51,079 nucleotides of DNA from an uncultured Clostridia bacterium. GTDB lineage: Bacteria; Bacillota; Clostridia; Oscillospirales; Ruminococcaceae. Shown here piece after piece: positions 18,184-49,508 of this stretch. Numbering within the stretch: the stretch's first letter is position 1; the number at the start of each line of letters is the position of its first letter. The stretch covers positions 1 through 51,079 of the forward strand of contig CANRFM010000016.1 in the NCBI GenBank assembly GCA_947629905.1, read 5' to 3'. The notes under the pieces were generated by a model. It worked only from the letters and a program-made list of their open reading frames with translations. It was not told the DNA's origin and did not search any database. Both the position numbers and the translations under genes were made by a program.

Positions 18184-18212
18184 TTGTATTTTTTGTGAAA
18201 ATGTGCTATGAT
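18184..18212 (+). promoter_or_regulatory. Promoter of the HSP90-solenoid operon
   Basis: -35 TTGTAT (18184-18189) and -10 TATGAT (18207-18212) are separated by 17 bases, 36 bases before the ATG. I see no CIRCE or CtsR-type heat-shock operator here. Confidence 0.55.
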
Positions 18213-18247
18213 AGAAGAAGTACCTGAGAAAGTGAGGAAACTGTCGG

Positions 18248-20023
18248 ATGGCAGAACCATTTGTATTCAAAGTCAATCTCGGCGGAATGATCGACATTCT
18301 TGCCAATCATCTTTACAGCAGCCCGGATGTCTTTGTCCGGGAACTGCTCCAGAACGGTGCGGATGCCATCAGCGCCCGGAAACTTGACCAGCCGGACTTC
18401 CGCAGACCACGCATGACCATTACCATCGAACCCGGCAGACATATGACCTTTACCGATAACGGCATCGGTCTGACCGAAGCGGAAATTCACCAGTTCCTTG
18501 CCGTCATCGGGCAAAGCTCCAAGCGGGACAAGGAGACGGGCAAAGACAATGACAATTACATCGGGCGTTTCGGTATCGGGATGCTGTCGTGCTTTATGGT
18601 GACGGATGAGATCATGCTCCGCACCCGTTCTGCCCGTGAACCGGCACACGCCTACGAATTTCACGGCAAGCCGGACGGGACATACAGCATTCAGGAGATC
18701 CCGGCAGATACGGTCGAGATCGGAACTGCCATGTACCTCGATGCCAAGCCGGGCAGTGAATTCTACTTTGACGAGGAGCGCATCACCGATCTGGTGCTGT
18801 ACTACGGGCTTGCTCTGCCGTATCCGGTCATTCTGTGCAGGGAGGACGGGGAACATCCGCTCAACGCCCGTATGCACTCCCGGAACGATGCAGATGCCGA
18901 CATCATGGCACTGGGGAGAAAGGTGTTTCATTCAGAGTTCCTCGGCTATATTCCGCTCGAATCCAAAAGCGGACTGTTCAGCGGTACTGCCTACATTCTG
19001 CCCCATGCCGTCTCGCTTCACGCCAAAACGCAGCACCGCATCTACCTGAAAAATATGCTCCTCACCGAGGACGGGGATAAGCTCCTGCCCAAGTGGTCGG
19101 GCTTTCTGCGCTGCATCCTGAACACCACCGGACTGCGCCCGACAGCTTCCCGGGAGAACTTCTACGAGGACGAGAACCTCGAACAGGCACGGCAGGAGCT
19201 GAGCGAATGTATTTCCGGCTATCTGCTGCGGCTTTCCCGGACAGATGCCCGGCTTTTGGAGCAGATCATTCAGGTGCACTTCATGGCGATCAAGTCCCTT
19301 GCCTGCGAGGATGAGACATTCTTCCGGACGTTCATTCCCTTCCTGAAATTTGAAACGAACATGGGGGAACTCTCCGGCAAGGAACTGCTCTCCCGGCGGG
19401 ATGTCATCACCTTTGCGAATGACATCAACCAGTACCACCGCACGTCTGCGATCATGCTCGCACAGGGGCAGCTTTTGGTGAATGCGTCCTACGTGTTCGA
19501 TACCGCTTTGCTGCGGATGTTACAGGAGTATGAGCCGGGTCTTGTCATCTGCCCGCTCGAACTGGTGACGATGGACGAATTTCTCCGGGAACCGGAAGAA
19601 GATACCCGTGAGCAGACAGCCGCATTATTGCAGACGGCAGAGGAAGTTTTGCAGGACTACGACTGCGGTGCAGAGCTGCGCTGTTTCACCCCGGAGCAGC
19701 TCCCGGTGTTCTTCATGCTCGATGACAATGCGGAAGCACTGCGGGAGATACAGCATTCCAAGGAAAATTCCCACGAAATGTTCGCTTCCATGCTCGACAG
19801 CTTTGCCGAAGAACTGGACGATCACCGGGCAGTGCTGTACCTCAACTACAACAACTCCCTCATCCGCCGGCTTGCGGCACTGGACGATCCGGAAAAGGTG
19901 CGTGTCTGCCTTCAGATCCTCTACGTGCAGGCACTGCTGACGGGGCGTTTCCCCATGCGGGGCGGTGAAATGGCAGTACTCAATGACAACCTCATCCGCC
20001 TGATCGAATGGGGTATCCAATAA
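18248..20023 (+). CDS. HSP90-family ATPase, divergent from HtpG
   Basis: The 591-residue protein has all GHKL ATPase motifs of HSP90: VRELLQNGADAISARK (Glu32, Asn36, Asp39), FTDNGIGLTEAE (about 70) and IGRFGIGMLSCFMV (about 107). The middle domain has TGLRPTASRENFYEDENLEQ near residue 300, equivalent to the arginine loop (LNVSRE in HtpG) that completes the active site. The C-terminal third is shorter and unlike HtpG, and there is no MEEVD-type tail. It should bind and hydrolyse ATP and clamp onto client proteins. It heads a tight operon (gaps of 10 and 11 bases) with two paralogous helical-repeat proteins, which is not the setting of housekeeping htpG. Those proteins are likely partners or clients. 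A weak GAGGAA site precedes the ATG. Confidence 0.85.
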   Translation: MAEPFVFKVNLGGMIDILANHLYSSPDVFVRELLQNGADAISARKLDQPDFRRPRMTITIEPGRHMTFTDNGIGLTEAEIHQFLAVIGQSSKRDKETGKDNDNYIGRFGIGMLSCFMVTDEIMLRTRSAREPAHAYEFHGKPDGTYSIQEIPADTVEIGTAMYLDAKPGSEFYFDEERITDLVLYYGLALPYPVILCREDGEHPLNARMHSRNDADADIMALGRKVFHSEFLGYIPLESKSGLFSGTAYILPHAVSLHAKTQHRIYLKNMLLTEDGDKLLPKWSGFLRCILNTTGLRPTASRENFYEDENLEQARQELSECISGYLLRLSRTDARLLEQIIQVHFMAIKSLACEDETFFRTFIPFLKFETNMGELSGKELLSRRDVITFANDINQYHRTSAIMLAQGQLLVNASYVFDTALLRMLQEYEPGLVICPLELVTMDEFLREPEEDTREQTAALLQTAEEVLQDYDCGAELRCFTPEQLPVFFMLDDNAEALREIQHSKENSHEMFASMLDSFAEELDDHRAVLYLNYNNSLIRRLAALDDPEKVRVCLQILYVQALLTGRFPMRGGEMAVLNDNLIRLIEWGIQ

Positions 20024-20033
20024 GGAGGACACA

Positions 20034-21083
20034 ATGGCTTCATTCCAAGTGACGGAACAGAATTTTGAGACCTACGAACGGGGCGTACCCCGGCTCAATG
20101 CCATACGGCAGGCAATTGCCGAAGCCGATCAGGAGAAACACGTGTACTGGCAGTTCCGGTTCCGGTATGATTACATCGAAGAATCGGTCTTTTGCGGCGA
20201 CAGATACTATGCGCTCATCATGTTCCCGGAGCTGTTACAGCACTATGATGCCCACCCGGAATTGCAGGACGATGCCAATATCACGCACTCCCTGCTGGTG
20301 AATTTCCGGTGGATCGTGGAGGCAGCACCGGAATTTCCGCAGATCAGCAAGGCGGAGATCGACAACTACTTCCGCCTGTTCCGGCGGCGGCTGCTCGAAA
20401 ATGACTACAGCCTGAGCATCTACTACATGAAGCGCAGCTTGTTTTATTTGGATATTGATCTGGATATTGCATCTTCGGATTTCTACAAATTCCTTGAAAG
20501 CCCGCTCGATTCCATTGCGGACGGCAAGCCGCTGTACTACAACCATCAGGTGGAGTACTATCTTGCCATGGACGAGGAGGAAAAAGCCCTGAAAGCGGCA
20601 GAACCGATCTTCTCCGGACGGATGAAGTCCAGCGCTCTCCCGCACTCCACGCTCCACAAATTCTGCCGCTATCATGTCCTGAAAGGCGATTACGAAAAGG
20701 CGTTAAGCTACGCCAAACAGTTTGAACACACTGTCACCGGCGACCTCTACTACCTGCACCACATCGGCACGCTGTTAGCGCTCTATGCCCACACAGACCC
20801 GGCACACGCCGCAAAGCTGTTCAACCGGCACTATCCGCTGTTCTTGAGCTCCAAAAACCCATGGCTGCGGGCTGCCTTTTTGGCAGGGGCTGCCGCCTTT
20901 GCCAAGTGGGCGGATACACAGCAGCTTCTTGTCCTGGTATCGGGGGCAGTACAGGCAGACGATCCCACACAATTCGCACAGCAGCTCTGCCGGGATGCGG
21001 AGGAAGTAGCAGGGAAATTTGACCAGCGCAACGGAACAAGCATTTTTACAGACAGGATCCGGGCATTCTGCGCCGGACTATAA
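20034..21083 (+). CDS. Helical-repeat (TPR-like) protein, HSP90-operon partner A
   Basis: The 349-residue protein is almost entirely alpha-helical by inspection, with repeated amphipathic pairs such as KALKAAEPIFSGRMKSSALP and HKFCRYHVLKGDYEKALSYA, which look like TPR hairpins (xxYxxKGDYEKALxYA). The N-terminal 80 residues (RLNAIRQAIAEADQEKHVYW, RYDYIEES, FPELLQHYDAHPELQDD) are clearly related to the start of the next protein. The two also share the end motif KFDQRNGTSIFTDRI versus KLDKRNESTRYTDLL, so the genes arose by duplication. No catalytic motif, signal peptide or membrane segment is visible. A GGAGGA site precedes the ATG. A co-chaperone or client-recognition role is inferred from context only. 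Confidence 0.65.
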   Translation: MASFQVTEQNFETYERGVPRLNAIRQAIAEADQEKHVYWQFRFRYDYIEESVFCGDRYYALIMFPELLQHYDAHPELQDDANITHSLLVNFRWIVEAAPEFPQISKAEIDNYFRLFRRRLLENDYSLSIYYMKRSLFYLDIDLDIASSDFYKFLESPLDSIADGKPLYYNHQVEYYLAMDEEEKALKAAEPIFSGRMKSSALPHSTLHKFCRYHVLKGDYEKALSYAKQFEHTVTGDLYYLHHIGTLLALYAHTDPAHAAKLFNRHYPLFLSSKNPWLRAAFLAGAAAFAKWADTQQLLVLVSGAVQADDPTQFAQQLCRDAEEVAGKFDQRNGTSIFTDRIRAFCAGL

Positions 21084-21094
21084 GGAGGAATATC

Positions 21095-23434
21095 ATGTTT
21101 TCAGCAAAAGAATTCAACGACCAGATCTATGAAGCCCCCCACGGTGAGCCACGCCTGAAACTTCTTGCCAATGCCATTGCGGCAGCGGATGAAGCCTCGG
21201 AAAGCCGCTGGCAGCTGCAATACCGACTGGATTATATTGAGGAATCGACCTTTCACGATGACAACTATAAGGCAATTGTCGCCTTTCCGGAGCTGCTGAA
21301 ACTGTTTGACGAGCATCCGGAACTGGAGGACGACTACTGCGACGATGTGATGCAGGCTTTCAAGTGGGTGCTGGAGAATACCTTTGATTTCTACCAGATC
21401 TCCCGGGAAGAGATCGAGCGCTATTTTGACGAATTTGAAAAGCGCTGCAAGAAGTACGGGCACTCCCTGCGGGTGTTCTACATGAAGAAGTGCAAGTTCT
21501 ACCTCATGGCAGACATGGACAAAGTGCCGGAGAATTACGAAGCGTTCCACCGTTTCAAGCGTGGCATCAACAGCGACTGTGAAGCCTGCGAGATGAGCTT
21601 TGACATGAAAGTCGCCCTTGCCCTCGGCAATGAGGAGGAGGCGCTCCGCATCGCACAGCCCCTGCTCCGGGGTGAAAAGCACTGCGCCGAAGTTCCGCAC
21701 TGCACCTACGGGGAATTAGCGGAGCATTACCTCTACAAGGGCGATATTGCGGAAGCCCACTTCTACGGCACACAGTGTGAAAGACTCATCGGCACGGATG
21801 CGGTATTCCTGACAGAGATGGGCATACTGCTTGAGCTGTACAGTGCTGCCGATGCACAGCACGGGTGGACACTGTTCAAGCAGAGCCTCGGACAGTTCCT
21901 CGCCTGCCGGAACCCCCTGATGAAGATGCACTACGCAAGGGGTGCTTACCGCCTTGTCAAGGTAATTGCCGATTCCATGAAAGACAGCCCGGACGGTGCT
22001 TACTCGAAAAGTGCCGTGCTGCGTTCGCTGCCGCTGACGTTTACGGACAAGGGCGTTTCCCTGTATGAGGTGAGTGACTGGTTTTTCGCACAGGCAAAGG
22101 ACCAGTGCGAAAAGCTCGACAAGCGCAACGAAAGCACACGCTATACCGACCTGCTGAACACCGACCTGCAAGCCGCATCAGAAGCATTCGTCCCGGAACA
22201 GCACCGCACACAGCATGGCATCGTTCCCAAGCAGCGTGCTGTATTTGCAGTCACGCTCCCGGCGGACAAAAAGCCCTCCATAGAGGAACTGAAAGAGCGG
22301 GTACACTTCCCGGAGGGGACAGAGGTGCTGACCTGTTCCGCAGAGGAGCAGCAGCTCTTTCTGGTCGTGCGCCGTGACGGCATAGTGACGGAGTATGTTC
22401 TTGCAGCGCAGGAGCTGCCGCCCGGTATGCCCGCCCGTCCGGTCGCCGGGATGAGCGATGAGACATTCGGGGAAATGATGGATGTCTCACTGAAATATAT
22501 GCTGAGCATGGAATACGGCAGTACCCCCATGCTGGAAATGCACCATGCGATGCAGCTTTTGTATCAGCTCTTCCCGGATATGCTGGGGGTAGTGGATATG
22601 CGCACATGGCACGCCTATCCCAGAAACTGGGTAAAATTCGCAGCATCCTATGAACATGGCGTGACACCGGATGATCTGTTCGGGCTGTTCATTTCCGGTT
22701 CGGAGGAGACCGGGGAGATCGAGATGACCACCACTGGTCTGTGTGCGCTCGGGCTGCGGGAGCTGGTGATCAGCGGCACGAACGAGGAGAACTACGGCGA
22801 CTTTGCCGAACTGCTTGACTTTGCGGCAAAAGCGGCAGTAGTGCAGAATATGCTGCCGGATGCGGGTACGGCATTTGGTTCGTTCCGTATCGGCGAACAG
22901 GAGCTTTCTTTCACATGGACAGATGTTGCCGACTGCGGGGAGCAGCAGAACAGGGACATATCCGAGGAACAGGGTATCCCTTCCGGTTTTCTGTTAGTGC
23001 AGACGGCGGACGGAGCAGCAGTCCTGCCGACAGACTATGAGCCGCTGACAGAGGAAGAAGCACAATTCCCCAGCATCCACAAGGATTTTCTGCGGCGGAT
23101 ACGGCTTGCCAAGGAGACGTACCAAGCATTTGAAGCACTGATGCAGCAGCCCTTTGCACGGGCAGCGGTACGGCTTGAATACAGGATGAGCGAGGATATG
23201 GCAGACGAATACGGCTACAGCATTGAGCTGCTGTGGGGCGATGCTGTCCGGAAAGACGGCAAGATCATTCAGCAAGTCGGTGAGACGGCTGAAACGCTCC
23301 CGGATATTCACGAGGGCGATGAAACAGAGGTCGAGCCGGATGCCGTTGCAGACTGGTTCATCCAGCCGAAAGGCTCGGAAAGGACATACGGCTGTCAGAA
23401 TCTCTTTTATCTCTGGGAGGAGGCGGAAGCATGA
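21095..23434 (+). CDS. Helical-repeat protein with extra C-terminal domain, HSP90-operon partner B
   Basis: Residues 1-360 of the 779 are a paralogue of the upstream protein, with matching RLDYIEES, FPELLKLFDEHPELEDD and GDIAEAHFYGTQCERL segments. From about residue 370 a different mixed alpha/beta region begins (AVFAVTLPADKKPSIEELKE, then HFPEGTEVLTCSAEEQQLFLV). It includes EMHHAMQLLYQLFPDMLGVV, WVKFAASYEHGVTPDDLFGL and a second beta-rich stretch to the C-terminus. This C-terminal part resembles families catalogued as DUF4026 or DUF2314, but I cannot confirm which. There is no membrane segment. The gene overlaps the next by four bases (ATGA). The fused architecture suggests an adaptor: the solenoid for HSP90 or partner A, the C-terminal part for a target. 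Confidence 0.6.
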   Translation: MFSAKEFNDQIYEAPHGEPRLKLLANAIAAADEASESRWQLQYRLDYIEESTFHDDNYKAIVAFPELLKLFDEHPELEDDYCDDVMQAFKWVLENTFDFYQISREEIERYFDEFEKRCKKYGHSLRVFYMKKCKFYLMADMDKVPENYEAFHRFKRGINSDCEACEMSFDMKVALALGNEEEALRIAQPLLRGEKHCAEVPHCTYGELAEHYLYKGDIAEAHFYGTQCERLIGTDAVFLTEMGILLELYSAADAQHGWTLFKQSLGQFLACRNPLMKMHYARGAYRLVKVIADSMKDSPDGAYSKSAVLRSLPLTFTDKGVSLYEVSDWFFAQAKDQCEKLDKRNESTRYTDLLNTDLQAASEAFVPEQHRTQHGIVPKQRAVFAVTLPADKKPSIEELKERVHFPEGTEVLTCSAEEQQLFLVVRRDGIVTEYVLAAQELPPGMPARPVAGMSDETFGEMMDVSLKYMLSMEYGSTPMLEMHHAMQLLYQLFPDMLGVVDMRTWHAYPRNWVKFAASYEHGVTPDDLFGLFISGSEETGEIEMTTTGLCALGLRELVISGTNEENYGDFAELLDFAAKAAVVQNMLPDAGTAFGSFRIGEQELSFTWTDVADCGEQQNRDISEEQGIPSGFLLVQTADGAAVLPTDYEPLTEEEAQFPSIHKDFLRRIRLAKETYQAFEALMQQPFARAAVRLEYRMSEDMADEYGYSIELLWGDAVRKDGKIIQQVGETAETLPDIHEGDETEVEPDAVADWFIQPKGSERTYGCQNLFYLWEEAEA

Positions 23435-23814
23435 AACGGGTCGTCTGGGTTGCTGTTACGCTGTTGATCATGATCGGCATTCTCGGCTATGGACTGCATA
23501 CACTTAACCGCATTGAAGAGGTGAACCAGCAGAGACGGGAAAAGGAAGCGGGCAACGATTTTGTCGCAAAGATCACAATGACGACGGCTTCTACCAGTAT
23601 CTGGGACAGACTGCGGGAGACAGAAACTTCTGTCGTCCCGGAGGGAAGCACCCCGGCAGGAGAACCAGTGGGAGAAACCGGCTCACCAACACCGGGCGAA
23701 CCGGGTGTCATGCCGACAGAAGCCCCCGAAGCACAGGCGCCTGCCGTTCCGGGTGTCGTGGAGGCAGCACCGGAACAGACTGTCACGACCCCGATCGTCA
23801 TCCAGATACAGTAA
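23431..23814 (+). CDS. Single-pass membrane protein with Pro/Thr/Glu-rich extracellular tail
   Basis: The 127-residue product has one N-terminal membrane helix (VVWVAVTLLIMIGILGYGL, about residues 4-22) after MKR. A short charged helix follows (LNRIEEVNQQRREKEAG), and then about 75 residues rich in Pro, Thr, Glu, Ala and Gly (VPEGSTPAGEPVGETGSPTP and on). The positive N-terminus places the tail outside. No sorting signal or enzyme domain is seen. It overlaps the previous gene by ATGA, so it belongs to the HSP90 operon and is the likely membrane end of that system. I do not recognise the family. Confidence 0.6.
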   Translation: MKRVVWVAVTLLIMIGILGYGLHTLNRIEEVNQQRREKEAGNDFVAKITMTTASTSIWDRLRETETSVVPEGSTPAGEPVGETGSPTPGEPGVMPTEAPEAQAPAVPGVVEAAPEQTVTTPIVIQIQ

Positions 23815-23828
23815 AGAGGTGAGGACAG

Positions 23829-23939
23829 ATGAAAGGTAAGATGAAACCCAAAAAGAGCACAGCCATGCGGATCTTGGTGCTGGTGATGGTGGTAGCCATG
23901 TTTGCAGGATTTATTATCCTGCCGTTCTTACAGGGCTGA
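23829..23939 (+). CDS. 36-residue single-helix membrane protein
   Basis: The product is MKGKMKPKKSTAMRILVLVM followed by VVAMFAGFIILPFLQG: a lysine-rich cytoplasmic head and one membrane helix. The ATG follows GAGGTGAGGACAG, a strong ribosome binding site, 14 bases after the previous stop. Such tiny proteins with a KKS head are catalogued in Firmicutes (for example as DUF4044), and that assignment is tentative. It is the last short gene before degV and probably shares the HSP90-operon transcript. It may modulate a membrane complex. Confidence 0.55.
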   Translation: MKGKMKPKKSTAMRILVLVMVVAMFAGFIILPFLQG

Positions 23940-24894: not shown

Positions 24895-27800
24895 ATGAAA
24901 AGAACCAACATTTTCCATAAAGCCGTATCTGTTGCCGTGACGGCACTTCTCTGCCTGCCGTGTATGGCGGGCTTGCTCTCCTCGGCGGAAACTGCCAAGC
25001 AGACAGTGCGCATTCCCTACGGATTCAATACGTTTTTGGAGGTGGATGAGGAGGGCAATACTTCGGGCTACTATGCCGACTACCTTGCCGAACTTGCCGA
25101 CATCAACCAGTGGCAGTATGAATATGTGAAAGCTTCGTGGACGGAAGCAATAGCTATGCTCGACAGCGGTGAGATCGACTTTCTGTTTCCCACCAACTAC
25201 AGTGAGGAACGGGACAAGACGATGGACTTTTCTGCCATTCCGACCGGCTATACCTCTATCGGTCTTTTTGCGCTGGAGGACAGCGATTACAATTATGAGG
25301 ACTACGCTTCGTTTGACGGGGCAAGAATTGCCTGCGCTGCCGCTTCCACCAATGAAGAGGAGCTTGCGGTCTATGCCAAAGAACACGGTTTTACCTACGA
25401 ACTCGTTCCCTGCACCACCAACGATGAAATGATGCAGGCAGTCGAGAACGGCGATGCCGACCTTGCCGCTTTCAGTGCGGCGAATAAATTTCCCGGTGCG
25501 AAACTGGCTGCCGTTTTCAGCGCTGACCCGGTTTTCATCACCGTGAAAGCGGGCAATACCGAAATGCTCTCCGCCATTGACAACGGGATGCAGGAGATCA
25601 TACAGGAGGACACGGAGCTGATCTCCGATGTGCTGCGCAAGACCCTTGTCGGCGAGAACGGCAACACCAACGCCTTTACTGCCGAGGAGCGGAAATTTAT
25701 AGAATCCGGTGAAGAGCTTGTGATCGGCTTCTACGAGGAGAGCGAACCGCTTGCCTACGTTGACCGGAACGGCGAATACAAGGGCATTTACGTCGAATTT
25801 CTGTCGCACATCATGGAAATGACGGGTGTGAAGTTCACGCCCTACCCCATCACACGGGATGAAAAGTGGCAGGATCTCATCAAAAGCGGGGAGATCGATT
25901 TTTACATCGGCTCTTCTGAAATTATCGTGCTGCAGGACAACGAGATCTGCACCACACGGCCATTCATGGAGTATTCCAATCTTCTTGTCACCAAAAGCAA
26001 CTGCGTCCTGAATCAGATCGAAAAGCCCGTCATTTCCATGACATACGGAAAAGCCAACTGGTCGGACTATCTCGAAAGCAAATTCGGCAGGGAGATGCAG
26101 TTTCAGTATTACCGAACGACCAGAGAGTGTATGCTGTCCGTTGCCAAGGGGGAAGCCGATGCCGCACTGATCAGCAGCCTTGAATTCAATTACCACAAGA
26201 AGAACCCCCGCTTTTCCTCGCTGACCTATTCCACCCAGTACCGCTACCCGACTAAGATCAGCATGGCATCTTCCGTGGATATGGATCCGGATATTCTCTC
26301 CGCTGTGAATAAAATGATCACCTCCGTGGATGCGGATTATATCGATACGATCTCCGATGAATCCCTCAATATCGTCTACCATTCCTACACCATCGGCGAC
26401 TACCTGTATAATGCACGGTTCACGTTTCTGATCATCGGCGGTGTGATCATTATTATCCTGATCTCAGCCGAATTTCACCGCAGCAAGCAGAAATTCAAGG
26501 AGGAGGCAAGCCGGAAAGAACAGGAGACCCTGCGCATTTTGGCGGCACTCAGTGATGATTATTCTGCCATTTTCTATACCGATCTGGACAGTAATACCTA
26601 TACAGTTATCCGCTGCCCGGAAGGCAGTACCTCCGCTGTCTATCAGAAAGACACGCACTCCGAAGCGCTTACGCTGTATTTGCAGGAGTCGATCCTTCCC
26701 GAATACCGGGATGCCATTTCGCCTTTCTGCGACCCGAAGAAGATCATAGAACGCTTTCAAACTGAAAAGGCTTTCTATATCCGCTATCAGGTCAAGACGG
26801 AAACCGACCAGACAAGCTACTACGAGATGAGCTTTGTCAATGTCAGCGAAAACGGAAACAACCGCATGGTGTTCGGTATCCGCTGTGTGGATGATTTGGT
26901 CAATGCCGAACGGAAACAGCGGCAGATGCTCGAGGATGCCCTGAAAAGCGCCAACCGTGCCAACTCCGCAAAATCGGACTTTCTCTCCATGATGTCGCAC
27001 GACATCCGCACCCCCATGAATGCCATCATCGGCATGACGGCGATCGCTTCGGCACACATTCACGAACCCGACCGCATTCAAGATGCCCTCGGCAAGATCT
27101 CCAGCTCCAGTCAGTACCTGCTCAGTCTGATCAATGATGTACTTGACATGAGCAAGATCGAATCGGGCAAGTTCAAGCTCTCGCAGGAAAATATCGACCT
27201 GAAAGAACTTCTGCAGGAAATGATCGGCATGATACAGCCGCAGATCCGGGAGCATAAGCACACACTCAGCGTGAATATCGGGCAGATCCGGCATAACGAT
27301 GTGATCGGCGACAAGCTGCGGATACAGCAGGTGTTCATGAATATCATGAGCAACGCCATCAAGTACACCCCGAATGGCGGAACGATCACGTTCTCCGCAA
27401 GTGAAAAGCGCATCAGTTCCAAAACGGCAGCCTGCTTTGAACTGGTCTTTCAGGACAGCGGCATTGGTATGTCCGACGACCTGATCGAACACGTCTTTGA
27501 ACCGTTCATCCGTGCCGAAGATCTCCGCATCAGCAAAACGCAGGGCACAGGGCTTGGGCTGCCCATCACCAAAAATATTGTCCACATGATGAACGGTTCG
27601 ATTGAGATCAAGAGCGAACCGCAGAAGGGCTCGACCTTTATCGTCACGATCTTCCTGCTGCTGCAAAATACCCAAAAAGCGCAGGAATCCCCCGAAAATG
27701 CACAGGACAAGAACAAGATCCACACGGGCGATTTCAAAGGGCGGCGTGTGCTGCTCTGCGAGGACAACGAGCTGAACCGTGAGATCGCTAAGGAAATTTT

Positions 27801-28116
27801 AGAGATGTCACAGCTTACCGTAGACGAGGCAGAGGACGGGCAGGTGGCATTTGATCTGTTTGCCAATTCGGATGACGGGTACTATGATATCATTTTCATG
27901 GATATTCAGATGCCCAATATGAACGGCTATGATGCGACCCGTGCGATCCGGAACCTGAACCGCCCCTACGCAAAGCAAGTGCCCATTATCGCCATGACTG
28001 CCAATGCCTTTGTGGAGGACATCAAGGCTTCTGAGGCTGCGGGCATGAATGAACACCTTTCCAAACCCATTGATTTTGCCAAATTGCACCAGATCCTTGA
28101 AAAATACCTTGGCTGA
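24895..28116 (+). CDS. Hybrid sensor histidine kinase with two solute-binding domains
   Basis: The 1073-residue protein has a signal peptide (AVTALLCLPCMAGLLSSAET). Two tandem family-3 solute-binding domains follow: about 37-250, beginning TVRIPYGFNTFLEVDEEGNT, and about 260-495, beginning ELVIGFYEESEPLAYVDRNG. A membrane helix (FTFLIIGGVIIIILI, about 509-525) precedes a PAS-like region (about 545-685). The HisKA phospho-acceptor is His702 in MMSHDIRTPMNAIIG, and the ATPase has NAIKYTPNGG and GTGLGLPI. The C-terminal receiver (VLLCEDNELNREIAKEIL) carries phospho-acceptor Asp1003 in IIFMDIQMPN. No HPt domain or output regulator is adjacent. It likely senses an amino acid or similar small ligand outside the cell. 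The phosphorelay partner is unknown. An AGGTTT-type site precedes the ATG. Confidence 0.93.
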   Translation: MKRTNIFHKAVSVAVTALLCLPCMAGLLSSAETAKQTVRIPYGFNTFLEVDEEGNTSGYYADYLAELADINQWQYEYVKASWTEAIAMLDSGEIDFLFPTNYSEERDKTMDFSAIPTGYTSIGLFALEDSDYNYEDYASFDGARIACAAASTNEEELAVYAKEHGFTYELVPCTTNDEMMQAVENGDADLAAFSAANKFPGAKLAAVFSADPVFITVKAGNTEMLSAIDNGMQEIIQEDTELISDVLRKTLVGENGNTNAFTAEERKFIESGEELVIGFYEESEPLAYVDRNGEYKGIYVEFLSHIMEMTGVKFTPYPITRDEKWQDLIKSGEIDFYIGSSEIIVLQDNEICTTRPFMEYSNLLVTKSNCVLNQIEKPVISMTYGKANWSDYLESKFGREMQFQYYRTTRECMLSVAKGEADAALISSLEFNYHKKNPRFSSLTYSTQYRYPTKISMASSVDMDPDILSAVNKMITSVDADYIDTISDESLNIVYHSYTIGDYLYNARFTFLIIGGVIIIILISAEFHRSKQKFKEEASRKEQETLRILAALSDDYSAIFYTDLDSNTYTVIRCPEGSTSAVYQKDTHSEALTLYLQESILPEYRDAISPFCDPKKIIERFQTEKAFYIRYQVKTETDQTSYYEMSFVNVSENGNNRMVFGIRCVDDLVNAERKQRQMLEDALKSANRANSAKSDFLSMMSHDIRTPMNAIIGMTAIASAHIHEPDRIQDALGKISSSSQYLLSLINDVLDMSKIESGKFKLSQENIDLKELLQEMIGMIQPQIREHKHTLSVNIGQIRHNDVIGDKLRIQQVFMNIMSNAIKYTPNGGTITFSASEKRISSKTAACFELVFQDSGIGMSDDLIEHVFEPFIRAEDLRISKTQGTGLGLPITKNIVHMMNGSIEIKSEPQKGSTFIVTIFLLLQNTQKAQESPENAQDKNKIHTGDFKGRRVLLCEDNELNREIAKEILEMSQLTVDEAEDGQVAFDLFANSDDGYYDIIFMDIQMPNMNGYDATRAIRNLNRPYAKQVPIIAMTANAFVEDIKASEAAGMNEHLSKPIDFAKLHQILEKYLG

Positions 28117-30622: not shown

Positions 30623-33217
30623 ATGAATATGCAGAAATTCACACAGAAGTCACTGGAAGCTTTACAGGAAGCGCAGAATCTTGTGCGCTCCGCACAGAAT
30701 CCACAGATGGAACAGGTTCACCTGCTGACCGCTTTGCTCCGGCAGGAAAATGGTCTGATCGGACAGCTTTTGCAGAAAATGGGCGTGAATACGCAGGAAC
30801 TGCTGAACCAGCTCCGGACGGAAGCGGAAAAGCTCCCGCAAGTCTCCGGCAGCGGCTATCAGCCGAATGCGCTCTATGTCTCCAAAGAGACCGAAGCAGT
30901 CCTGAATGCTGCCGAACAGCAGGCTGCCGCCATGAAAGATGAATATGTTTCGGTCGAGCATATCTTCCTTGCCCTGACCGACCACCCCGGCAGCACGTTA
31001 CAGAAACTGTTCCGGCAGCATGGCATCCAGAAAAATACCTTTTTGCAGGTGCTGATGCAGGTGCGGGGCAATACCCGTGTGACAAGCGAAAACCCGGAAG
31101 AGACCTACGATGTGCTCGCCAAGTACGGGCAGGACTTAGTGGAACTTGCCCGGCAGAACAAGCTTGACCCTGTCATCGGACGGGATGCGGAGATCCGCAA
31201 TGTCATCCGCATCCTCTCCCGCAAGACCAAGAACAACCCTGTTCTCATTGGAGAACCCGGTGTCGGTAAAACTGCCATCGCCGAGGGGCTTGCTTTGCGG
31301 ATCGTCCGTGGCGATGTGCCTGACAGCCTGAAAGACCACAAGGTTTTCTCCCTTGACTTGGGCGCACTGGTTGCCGGGGCAAAGTACCGGGGCGAATTTG
31401 AGGAACGGCTGAAAGCTGTCCTTGCCGAGATCAAGAAGAGTGAGGGCGGCATCATCCTCTTCATCGATGAACTGCATACTATTGTGGGGGCAGGCAAGAC
31501 GGACGGCGCAATGGATGCCGGCAATCTGCTCAAGCCCATGCTTGCCCGTGGGGAACTGCACTGCATCGGTGCGACTACCCTCAACGAGTACCGCCAGTAT
31601 ATCGAGAAAGATCAGGCGCTCGAACGGCGTTTTCAGCCCGTCATGGTCGATGAACCGACCGTGGAAGATACTGTTTCCATTCTGCGTGGGCTGAAAGAAC
31701 GCTATGAAGTGTTCCACGGTGTGCGCATCCATGATGGTGCACTGCTGTCGGCGGCTTCGCTTTCGGACAGGTATATCTCGGACAGATTTCTGCCGGACAA
31801 GGCGATCGACCTTGTGGACGAGGCGTGCGCTGTCATCCGGACGGAAATGGACTCCATGCCGCAGGAAATGGACGATATTTCACGGCAGGTCATCCGTCTC
31901 GAGATCGAGGAAACTGCCCTGAAAAAGGAGACAGACAGCGTTTCGCAGGCGCATTTGCAGGAAATTCAGAAAGAACTTGCCGAACTGCGGGACAAACTTG
32001 CCGCCATGAAAGCACAGTGGGAGAACGAGCGCTCCGGTATCAACAAAGTCCAGAAACTCCGGGAAGAGATCGAGCAGACCACTGCCGCAATCGAAAAGGC
32101 AGAGCGGGAGTACGACCTGCAAAAGGCTGCCGAATTGAAATACGGCAAACTCCCCGAACTCCGGAAAGAGCTGGCAGCCTGCGAAGCTGCCGGAACGGAA
32201 ACGAAAGCCGCTTTGCTGCGGGACGAGGTGACATCCGAGGAGATCGCTGAGATCGTAGCACGGTGGACGGGTATTCCAGTTTCCCGGCTGATGGAGGGCG
32301 AGCGGGAAAAGCTTCTGCACTTAGAGGATGTGCTGCACCAGCGTGTCATCGGGCAGGACGAAGCCGTCACGAAGGTGAGCGAAGCGATTCTGCGCTCCCG
32401 TGCGGGCATTCAGGATCCGGACAGACCGATCGGGTCGTTCCTGTTCTTAGGACCTACGGGCGTGGGCAAGACGGAACTCGCCAAGGCGCTGGCGCAGGCA
32501 CTGTTTGACGATGAGAACAACATGGTGCGCATCGACATGAGCGAATATATGGAGAAATTCAGCGTGGGCCGTCTGATCGGAGCGCCTCCCGGATATGTCG
32601 GCTATGAGGAGGGCGGTCAGCTTACCGAAGCCGTCCGCCGCAAGCCCTACAGCGTGGTACTGCTCGACGAGGTGGAAAAGGCACATCCGGACGTGTTCAA
32701 TCTGCTGCTGCAAGTACTGGACGACGGCAGAATTACCGATTCGCAGGGGCGGACGGTGGACTTCCGGAATACCATTCTCATTCTGACTTCCAATTTGGGT
32801 TCGCCGGACATTTTAGAGGGCGTACAGGCGGACGGAGAAATTTCACCGGAAGCACGGGAGCGTGTCAATGCCCTGCTGCACCGGCAGTTCCGCCCTGAAT
32901 TTCTCAACCGTCTGGACGAGATCGTATTCTACAAGCCGCTGCAAAAGGCAGAGATCTTCCGCATCGTGGAACTGCTGCTTGATGATCTGCGCAGCCGCCT
33001 GAAAGAACGGCAGCTTGGTCTGAAACTGACCGATGCCGCTAAACAGGCGATCGTGGACAACAGCTATGATGTCAGCTTCGGGGCAAGACCGCTGCGGCGC
33101 TACATCCAGCAGAAACTGGAAACGCTGATCGCAAGGCGCATTCTTTCAGCCGAACCTGCTCCGGGGACGGAACTTGTTGCCGATTACCGGAACGGACAGT
33201 TTGTGCTGAACTGCTAA
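30623..33217 (+). CDS. clpB: ClpB disaggregase
   Basis: The 864-residue AAA+ protein has the standard ClpB layout. It has two Clp-N repeats (1-145), a first ATPase domain with Walker [14 protein letters not shown] and Walker [11 protein letters not shown], and a coiled-coil middle domain of about 120 residues (about 405-525, [20 protein letters not shown] onward). The second ATPase domain has [13 protein letters not shown] and [14 protein letters not shown], and a C-terminal domain follows. The pore loops [12 protein letters not shown] and [13 protein letters not shown] are intact. The ClpP-docking [LIV]GF loop is absent, as expected for a disaggregase that works with DnaK rather than ClpP. 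A GGGGG-type site precedes the ATG. It is co-transcribed with the ribbon-helix-helix-like gene. Confidence 0.97.
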
Positions 33218-47282: not shown

Positions 47283-49508
47283 TTACACGGTCACTGCCGC
47301 TTTCAGACGCAGTTTCTGTCCCTCGCCCGTGAGCAGTACCGTATCGCCCTTGTGTACCTCTCCATGCAGCCACATACGGGACAAGGGGCTTTCTACCTCC
47401 TGCATCAGCCGGCGGCGGATGGGACGTGCACCGTACTGTTTCGTTTCAGGGCAGTCGGCGGCGGCAAGGACTGCCGCTTTGTCATACGTCAGGGTGACAC
47501 CCATTCCGGCAGCACGCTGCGCCAGCTCTGATAGCTGTTTCCCGGCGATCGCTGCAAGGCTCTCCCTGCCGAGCGGCTCAAAGAGCAAAATCTCATCCAT
47601 CCGGTTGATCAGCTCCGGGGGTAGCACCTGCCGCAGACTGGCAAGCGCCCGTTCCCGCTTTTCTGCCGTGCGCTCCAGAAATCCGACACCTGCCGAACGT
47701 TCATGCATACCGCAGTTAGAGGTCAGTAAGATCAGCACATTCTGCAAGCTGATATGTCTGCCCATGCCGTCTGTAATGATACCGTCCTCCATCATTTGCA
47801 GCAACAAGTGCAGCACGTCCGGATGTGCCTTTTCGATCTCGTCAAACAGCACCACGCAGCAGGGATGCCGGCGCAGATGTTCGCAGAACTTCGTCTCCTC
47901 CGCATACCCCACATAGCCGGGCGGCGCACCGATGAGCTTCGAGGCGGTATGGGCTTCCATAAATTCCGACATATCCACCGTCAGCAGTGCCTTGTCCCCC
48001 CCGAACAGTGTCTTTGCCAGTGCCTTAGCCAGTGCTGTTTTCCCGACACCCGTCGGACCGAGCAGCAAAAACGACCCCACCGGTCTGCGTGTATCCCGAA
48101 AGCCGCTCCCTGCCCGGCATACGGCATCACAAAGCTGTATGACTGCCTGTTCCTGCCCGACGATCTGCTCCTGCAAGGCATTTTGCAGCAGCAGAAGCCG
48201 TTCCTGCTCCGCTGCTGTCATCTGCGAAAGCGGAATGCCTGTCCGCAGAGAGGCAACGGCTGCCACGTCCGCTTCGGTGACGGCAGCTTCTCTGCCGTGG
48301 AGCGCTGCCCTTGCGCAGGCTTCATCGAGCAGGTCGATCGCCTTGTCCGGAAAATGCTTGTCGCCGATATATTTCTGCGAAAGGGTCACGCATTTCCGGA
48401 GCACGCTGCTGTCCAGTCTGACTTTGTGGTATGCTGCATAGCTCTCCCGCAAGCCCTCTAACATATGCAGCGTTTCCTCCGCAGACGGCTCCTGCACGTC
48501 CACTTGCTGAAAGCGTCTTGCCAGTGCGCCGTCACGCTCGATACTGCGGGCATATTCGGCAGGGGTGGTAGCCCCGATCAGGCGCAGTTCGCCCCGTGCA
48601 AGGGCAGGCTTGAGGAGATTTGCTGCATCGATCGCTCCCTCCGCTGCGCCTGCGCCCACAATGGTATGCAGTTCGTCAATGAACAGGATAATTCTTCCGT
48701 CCCGGATGACCTCTTCTGTACACGCCCGCACCCTGTCCTCAAAATCGCCCCGGTACTTTGCGCCTGCCAACAGCAGCCCCAGATCCAGTGAGAACACAAA
48801 TTTCCCCGTCAGCTGCGGCGGTACTTCCCCCCGTGCAAAGCGTTCCGCAACGCCCTGCACGATGGCAGTCTTTCCCACACCCGGTTCGCCGACCAGACAG
48901 GGATTGTTCTTGCTCCGGCGGGCAAGGATCTGCAGCACACGTTCCATTTCCGCTTCCCTGCCGATGAGGGGGTCAGCTTTTTCATCCGGCAGCAGGAGTT
49001 TCCCGTAGCGGAACAGCTGTGGCAGTTCCTGCTCTGTGGGGCAGCTTGCCGCAGAACGGCTGACAGCTTTGCCAAGGCAGCTCTGCTCAAGGCGGTACAG
49101 ATCTGCCTCTGCGCATTCGAGCAATTCATAGGCGGCGCAGTTCTCGTCCTGTACGATCGCCAGCAGCATCCGGGACGTACCGACAAGTGCTTCCCCGTGT
49201 TCTGCCGCAAGCCCCTGCGCCGCCCGGAAAACACGGTGCAGCGCCGGGGTCATACTGCTGTAGCCGGGTGCAGTGGGGTTGCCCCTGCCGACCGTCTGCA
49301 CCACGTGGCGGAGCAGCAGTTCCTCGGTCATGCCCGCCTGCCGGAGCAGACCTTCGGCAGTATTGGGCGGCTGGCGGAGCATACCGAGGATATAATGCTC
49401 CGTGCCGATATAGGTATGCCCCAGCTCCCCGGCAAGCATCATAGCAGCCTCCAAGGACAGCAGGACGTTCTCTGAAAACCGGTCAATATCATAATTTGCA
49501 TTCTGCAA
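47283..49508 (-). CDS. ClpC/ClpA-like AAA+ unfoldase without middle domain
   Basis: The 741-residue protein starts with a TTG codon eight bases after AAAGGAGG. It has a Clp-N domain (ERFSEN-type start DRFSENVLLSLEAAMMLAGE), ATPase 1 ([23 protein letters not shown]) and ATPase 2 ([27 protein letters not shown]). Between them the linker HGREAAVTEADVAAVASLRT goes straight into ATPase 2, so the coiled-coil middle domain of ClpB and the short one of ClpC are missing. SAGVGFLERTAEK contains a VGF tripeptide at the place of the ClpP-docking loop, so it should feed ClpP. No clpP, ctsR or mcsAB is adjacent. It is encoded just downstream of spoIIID on the same strand, so a sporulation-stage role is possible but unproven. 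Confidence 0.88.
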   Translation of the reverse strand: MQNANYDIDRFSENVLLSLEAAMMLAGELGHTYIGTEHYILGMLRQPPNTAEGLLRQAGMTEELLLRHVVQTVGRGNPTAPGYSSMTPALHRVFRAAQGLAAEHGEALVGTSRMLLAIVQDENCAAYELLECAEADLYRLEQSCLGKAVSRSAASCPTEQELPQLFRYGKLLLPDEKADPLIGREAEMERVLQILARRSKNNPCLVGEPGVGKTAIVQGVAERFARGEVPPQLTGKFVFSLDLGLLLAGAKYRGDFEDRVRACTEEVIRDGRIILFIDELHTIVGAGAAEGAIDAANLLKPALARGELRLIGATTPAEYARSIERDGALARRFQQVDVQEPSAEETLHMLEGLRESYAAYHKVRLDSSVLRKCVTLSQKYIGDKHFPDKAIDLLDEACARAALHGREAAVTEADVAAVASLRTGIPLSQMTAAEQERLLLLQNALQEQIVGQEQAVIQLCDAVCRAGSGFRDTRRPVGSFLLLGPTGVGKTALAKALAKTLFGGDKALLTVDMSEFMEAHTASKLIGAPPGYVGYAEETKFCEHLRRHPCCVVLFDEIEKAHPDVLHLLLQMMEDGIITDGMGRHISLQNVLILLTSNCGMHERSAGVGFLERTAEKRERALASLRQVLPPELINRMDEILLFEPLGRESLAAIAGKQLSELAQRAAGMGVTLTYDKAAVLAAADCPETKQYGARPIRRRLMQEVESPLSRMWLHGEVHKGDTVLLTGEGQKLRLKAAVTV

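Follow-up and report, generated by a model that had tools for sequence, protein, structure and literature searches.

The window analyzed here is a 51,079-nucleotide stretch of the genome of an uncultured Clostridia bacterium of the family Ruminococcaceae (contig CANRFM010000016.1). It carries a tightly packed run of five genes on the plus strand, which encode an HSP90-type protein, two helical-repeat proteins (hereafter, solenoid A and solenoid B) and two small proteins of 127 and 36 amino acids (aa), in that order. The HSP90 and solenoid A genes are separated by 10 bases and the two solenoid genes by 11 bases, and the solenoid B gene overlaps the 127-aa gene by an ATGA, a spacing noted in the preliminary description of the locus and confirmed by the open reading frame (ORF) coordinates. 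Comparison with other genomes showed that this HSP90 belongs to a clade distinct from HtpG, and the partnership of this clade with the solenoid family is well supported by genomics.

The HSP90 is a full-length member of family NF010683 (PRK14083), called 'HSP90 family protein', a name silent on function: residues 7-590 aligned to the model with a score of 646 bits (cut-off, 455). The alignment to the HtpG model NF003555 covered the full three-domain plan (residues 7-567) and scored 167.8 bits, below the cut-off of 371. HtpG identity is ruled out by this score together with the position of the protein on a separate branch of the tree. A branch 1.66 long, with a Shimodaira-Hasegawa-like approximate likelihood-ratio test (SH-aLRT) value of 99, sets the 35 NF010683-type proteins apart in the tree; because long branches meet there, as the tool warned, neither its root nor its deep joins are certain. 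The residues of the GHKL ATPase motifs (E32, N36, D70, G72, G74, G106, G109 and G111) are identical in all 100 rows of the clade alignment, as is the catalytic arginine of the middle domain, R302, which aligns to the HtpG motif. Together with the family score, this bears out the complete set of HSP90 ATPase and middle-domain motifs reported in the preliminary description. For the residue counts, loci L076 and L123 were excluded and L077-L080 and L166 were assigned to neither group (L076 is also outside alignments A1-A4), and duplicate genomes (L070/L083, L067/L095 and L073/L109) were kept, as far as present, in the 100-row, 116-row and 81-pair sets. The window genome (G000) has a second HSP90-type gene on another contig (G000:C5), which scores below the NF010683 cut-off and groups with the HtpG rows in the tree. 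We also observed a third HSP90 group (L043, L044, L045, L046, L047, L051, L058, L059 and L015), with its own branch, separate from those of HtpG and of the solenoid-partnered clade; it comprises 13 tree rows, including four duplicates, and 8 of its 9 loci come from the family of the window.

The association of the two genes was assessed in the best 80 of 581 confirmed matches (hereafter, the named loci), from which L081 and L123 were dropped because the contig ends at the HSP90 gene. Among the 78 assessable loci, 69, spanning four phyla, have a solenoid gene within 2 kb of the HSP90 gene, be it adjacent downstream (57 loci), further downstream (11) or upstream (1). In the remaining loci, the solenoid is found 7 to 9 kb downstream (3) or is missing from the stretch examined (6), and yet the genomes of all nine carry a solenoid, with the copy in G600 being broken. 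Altogether, a solenoid was found in 17 of the 18 named genomes that were searched. Linkage can be lost while both genes are kept: in G507 and G586, a solenoid pair lies on a different contig from the HSP90 gene, and in the Planctomycetota sample described below, the genes are unlinked in G862 and located on different contigs in G773, and the solenoid is upstream in G834. As an observation in its own right, in L131 (Clostridiales bacterium CCNA10) and G600, ~8.6 kb including a recombinase-like gene (judged by eye) lies between an intact HSP90 gene and a broken solenoid gene. In both annotated records examined, the gene following the NF010683 HSP90 is annotated as 'hypothetical protein'. In a control set, the solenoid was near none of the 43 loci of HtpG or other HSP90s scoring below the cut-off, compared with 14 of the 16 loci of the NF010683 clade, a contrast softened by the short flanks that partial matches left beyond many of the 43 genes.

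We further searched for both proteins in four genome samples: the phylum (n=398) and family (n=197) of the window, Myxococcota, the phylum of the Myxococcus xanthus locus (G605; n=146), and Planctomycetota, the phylum of the Schlesneria locus (G606; n=119); the window genome was counted in two of these. In the first sample, the HSP90 exceeded the cut-off in 6 genomes and the solenoid was present in the same 6, whereas none of the 147 genomes with HSP90-type matches solely below the NF010683 cut-off carried a solenoid. In the family sample, 11 genomes have the HSP90 over the cut-off and a twelfth, G446, has it in two pieces that fall below the cut-off; solenoids were found in 14 genomes, covering all 12. 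Among Myxococcota, all 50 genomes with the HSP90 are included in the 52 with a solenoid match (51 of these strong), and the two genes are adjacent and on the same strand in every one of the 50, with 33 to 96 bases between the matches. Among Planctomycetota, the HSP90 and strong solenoid matches occur in the same 6 genomes, and three other genomes match no better than 2.9e-5; weak solenoid matches (G631, G766, G772 and G828; E values of 2.9e-5 to 7e-4) were not counted. Pooled over the four samples, the solenoid is present in 73 of 73 genomes with this HSP90 (one HSP90 gene being broken), and conversely, this HSP90 is present in 73 of 76 genomes with the solenoid. The preliminary description would have taken relatives regularly carrying the solenoid genes without the HSP90 as refuting its proposal; the dedicated pairing withstands this test, as the solenoid occurred alone in 3 of 76 genomes and this HSP90 alone in none of 73.

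Table 1. Features of the HSP90-solenoid operon in the window (positions are those of the whole stretch)
Feature	Coordinates	Strand	Basis and remarks
Promoter-like TTGTAT-17-TATGAT, TG before the -10	18184-18212	+	By eye; absent from promoter-scan list
HSP90, family NF010683 ('HSP90 family protein'), 591 aa	18248-20023	+	ORF and profile match; complete ATPase/middle-domain catalytic residues; near-invariant clade cysteines C115, C289, C473
Codon of HSP90 C115	18590-18592	+	99/100 clade rows
Codon of HSP90 C289	19112-19114	+	98/100 clade rows
Codon of HSP90 C473	19664-19666	+	95/100 clade rows
Solenoid A, 349 aa, all-helical TPR-type (predicted)	20034-21083	+	Without the cysteine triad present in most family members
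Solenoid B, 779 aa, whole gene	21095-23434	+	ORF
Solenoid B, N-terminal solenoid domain, paralogue of solenoid A	21095-22177	+	Triad C162, C165, C197 kept
Solenoid B, CxxC (C162, C165)	21578-21589	+	Sequence and alignment
Solenoid B, third cysteine C197	21683-21685	+	Sequence and alignment
Solenoid B, C-terminal alpha/beta region (predicted)	22178-23434	+	DUF4026_N, DUF2314 = Imm34
Small protein, 127 aa; single hydrophobic N-terminal stretch, Pro/Thr/Glu-rich tail	23431-23814	+	Membrane helix read from sequence
Small protein, 36 aa; single hydrophobic stretch	23829-23939	+	Membrane helix read from sequence

Solenoids A and B are paralogues, as previously claimed, with 32% identity over 358 columns (E value of 1e-51). 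The solenoid is confidently predicted to adopt a helical-repeat fold of the tetratricopeptide repeat (TPR) type, with structural matches that include MalT domain III, Rap and NprR. By contrast, TPR sequence models match rarely and weakly: TPR_14 was detected in 8 of 120 members, and the best E value of any TPR model was 1.5e-6. Among the Pfam and NCBIfam models matched, none is dedicated to this solenoid family. The label of solenoid proved apt for the N-terminal domain of solenoid B but not for its C-terminal half, which is predicted to be alpha/beta and contains DUF4026_N (residues 391-518) and DUF2314 (residues 670-775; 23.4 bits against a cut-off of 22), with a weak SuFu-like structural match located mostly between the two. 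The C-terminal attachments differ by lineage: DUF4026/DUF2314 in the window, TPR on a Streptomyces plasmid and Sel1 in a Paenibacillaceae draft genome. Copy number varies as well: a locus can hold as many as three solenoid genes, and one genome has four. In three Streptomyces plasmid-collection records, the gene directly after that of the HSP90 encodes a long protein that begins with the solenoid; its length is 1033 aa where annotated. A Listeria plasmid-collection record carries two solenoids and, by gene order, probably corresponds to lmo0942, lmo0941 and lmo0940; on the same basis, lmo0941 is presumably the solenoid at 8797-9771 of L164, a Listeria monocytogenes plasmid record. Three Listeria papers mention lmo0942 or lmo0941 in passing, and signals of selection are reported for the hypothetical gene lmo0941 (PMC6901971).

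With a probability of roughly 0.6, we interpret the operon as encoding a specialized HSP90 machine, separate from HtpG, with the dedicated TPR-type solenoid acting as its adaptor or co-chaperone. This interpretation is based on gene order, co-retention of the two genes when unlinked, specificity for one HSP90 clade, the predicted TPR fold and the kept catalytic residues. The ATP-driven HSP90 of this distinct bacterial paralogue clade would work with its solenoid partner, and the latter, docked on the chaperone, would hold clients or choose among them; by duplicating the solenoid and swapping its C-terminal domains, lineages could widen the choice of clients. The preliminary description had proposed that this bacterial HSP90 is a dedicated one, served by adaptors of its own. 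Of this proposal, the dedicated pairing holds across the genomes surveyed, and physical binding and an adaptor role, as opposed to that of a client, are what we infer from it.

Several observations weigh against this interpretation. No solenoid was found in G604, a 1.7 Mb draft in which the HSP90 gene is cut, and the flanks in the control were short, as mentioned above. The solenoid occurs without this HSP90 in three genomes (G427, where it is in two pieces, G584 and G658), and remote solenoids of this kind could be missed by profiles built from HSP90-linked copies. The Fisher values for co-occurrence (2e-13 for the phylum, 2e-17 for the family and 1e-38 to 3e-37 for Myxococcota) are not true probabilities because the genomes are not independent, and neither these values nor the correlation between HSP90 and solenoid protein distances (r 0.84 over 81 adjacent pairs) take shared ancestry or linkage into account; most of the 50 Myxococcota resemble one another closely in sequence, and the duplicates listed above represent the same genome twice. 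None of the listed HSP90 tails ends in MEEVD, nor do they share a clade-wide motif readily recognizable as a TPR docking site. Finally, the best structural matches of the solenoid include signaling TPR proteins (MalT, Rap and NprR) rather than co-chaperones alone, and co-retention suits a client role as well as that of an adaptor.

The last two points suit the alternative that the solenoid is an obligate client and the working part of the system, for instance, a peptide- or protein-sensing TPR regulator like MalT, Rap or NprR, with the HSP90 as its private folding factor. MalT domain III, Rap and NprR belong to signaling or regulatory proteins that are not known to pair with an HSP90. Variation of the solenoid C-terminal domains among lineages would also fit a client, but it is the solenoid domain that stays constant while the attachments vary, as expected of a docking module. 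Multiplication of the solenoid genes within loci and genomes likewise argues against a client, and a strict client would not be expected to persist in the three genomes that retain the solenoid without this HSP90. We consider the client model improbable, albeit the strongest competitor, and favor the adaptor because the solenoid domain is constant while attachments and copy number vary.

Both partners are marked by cysteines. Three near-invariant cysteines, C115, C289 and C473, characterize the HSP90 clade (Table 1), whereas among 44 HtpG-labeled rows, C115 occurs in one and C289 and C473 in none; the single row, L042, is the misplaced broken gene of G446. In the solenoid alignment, three columns are occupied by cysteine in an almost all-or-none manner: of 116 solenoids, 85 have all three, 24 have none and 7 are mixed. 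The triad consists of a CxxC followed by glutamate and a third cysteine ~32 residues on, and the glutamate tracks it, being present in 91% of solenoids with the triad versus 12% of those without. The three Streptomyces proteins and that of Paenibacillus cellulosilyticus contain the triad, as do, by eye, both Listeria proteins. Among loci with at least two aligned solenoids, 20 of 29 have one with the full triad and one without. Nine loci have no triad-bearing solenoid (two of these are cut by the contig end), and the sole solenoid found in G602 is without it. A metal or thiol role for the cysteines is a reasonable guess. A more elaborate and rather doubtful scenario is that bacteria evolved a two-part HSP90 system independently, with a TPR adaptor under metal or thiol control joining a cysteine-marked HSP90. 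C115, C289 and C473, together with the CxxC...C motif, would then make up or govern a metal or redox switch that links the sensing of stress to the transfer of clients, and adaptor duplicates bearing exchanged C-terminal domains would deliver different clients.

The two small proteins have a narrow distribution. Homologues of the 127-aa protein were found in 10 of the 80 named loci and, among 16 other regions, in L069 and L070, all from the Ruminococcus group, and homologues of the 36-aa protein were found in L069, L070 and L092. Separately, a 397-aa protein in L066 (14992-16185), which adjoins a MoxR-type ATPase (by eye), starts with a stretch resembling the 36-aa protein. An envelope or membrane quality-control system, in which the small proteins anchor the HSP90 complex, would be consistent with the two putative membrane proteins following the solenoids, the first overlapping the solenoid B stop codon, and with their recurrence in the Ruminococcus group. 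Such a role is nonetheless quite unlikely given the restriction of the 127-aa homologue to that group, and action at the membrane, considered possible in the preliminary description, does not extend to the family at large.

Within the genus of the window, all five genes recur in unchanged order in L069 and L070, with one extra gene inserted between the two solenoids of L070. In the ~5 kb past the last operon gene of L069, there is no homologue of the DegV-family or kinase genes that follow the operon in the window; the L070 stretch is too short to judge. The recurring order and the differing downstream genes suggest that the five genes form one unit in this genus. In the window, the stretch examined starts at position 18184 with the first base of the promoter-like element; VanZ-like and DUF4250 genes lie upstream of the operon, and a DegV-family gene and one for a hybrid histidine kinase lie downstream. 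The latter (24895-28116) encodes a receiver domain along with a pair of solute-binding sensor stretches, and the same 51 kb contain two Clp-type AAA chaperone genes with ClpB-like domain sets (30623-33217 and 47283-49508). The upstream neighbor of the HSP90 in the Ruminococcus relatives L069, L070, L082 and L089 resembles (by eye) a LacI-type sensor fused to GGDEF; the matching place in the window is occupied by VanZ and a small unmatched ORF. Predicted lipoproteins (by eye) are found near the HSP90 in the Oscillospiraceae-type loci L100, L129, L118 and L073.

A role in anti-phage defense, also entertained in the preliminary description, found no support and appears very improbable. It is brought to mind by a remote 877-aa HSP90-like protein encoded on a Pseudanabaena plasmid (L166, 5950-8583) among TIR-domain, helicase, TPR, vWA and AAA genes, possibly a different, defense-like system; this protein is outside the clade in the tree, and no solenoid was found beside it. 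PADLOC returned no match for either solenoid or either small protein, and its matches to the HSP90 involved the ATPase domain alone (best, 36.9 bits; residues 16-121). Clustering of neighbors across 101 loci, which were not scanned with defense models, recovered the solenoid as the sole widely shared gene. That the HSP90 and solenoid are chance operon neighbors held by linkage, close relatives sharing gene order anyway, is scarcely credible in view of their pairing across several phyla, including on separate contigs or at large distances, and the missing solenoid in genomes with other HSP90s alone.

The analysis assigns a dedicated partner family to a distinct, little-studied bacterial HSP90 clade, and the two are retained together almost without exception in four or more phyla. 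Some bacteria may therefore possess an HSP90 helper system of their own, although bacterial HSP90s are commonly described as having none. The pair occurs in Myxococcus xanthus and Paenibacillus, among other organisms amenable to laboratory work, in which the existence of bacterial HSP90 co-chaperones can be put to a direct test.

Among known systems, DUF2314 of solenoid B corresponds to Imm34 (Zhang 2012, PMC3482391), a link to polymorphic-toxin immunity; no toxin gene was recognized at the loci, none having been systematically searched for. HtpG (hsp90A) shares the domain plan and catalytic residues with the clade described here but forms a separate branch without the clade cysteines, and HtpG-only genomes of the phylum sample are without the solenoid. 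Three groups of bacterial HTPG proteins, A, B and C, have been distinguished (Chen 2006, PMC1525184), and clades hsp90B and hsp90C were reported in a study that excluded these long-branch paralogues (Press 2013, PMC3708813); group C is reported from both Firmicutes and Actinobacteria, and the two copies of Streptomyces coelicolor belong to different groups (PMC1525184, PMC3708813). These groups are, like the clade of the window, long-branch bacterial HSP90 paralogues, and the available text of both papers mentions no partner gene. Obligate HSP90 co-chaperones are reported not to have been identified in bacteria (Press 2013, PMC3708813), and a 2021 paper (PMC8082187) remarks that the bacterial cytosol is without apparent orthologues of Hop, Aha1 or p23. 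Our literature search found no paper on the HSP90-solenoid pairing. NF010683 probably corresponds to HTPG group C. Eukaryotic HSP90 works with TPR co-chaperones, including Hop, FKBP52, Tom70 and others. The bacterial clade differs in the missing MEEVD among the listed tails and in the weak TPR sequence matches of its partner; the two partnerships likely originated independently, in which case the bacterial one would offer a second HSP90-TPR system to compare with that of eukaryotes.
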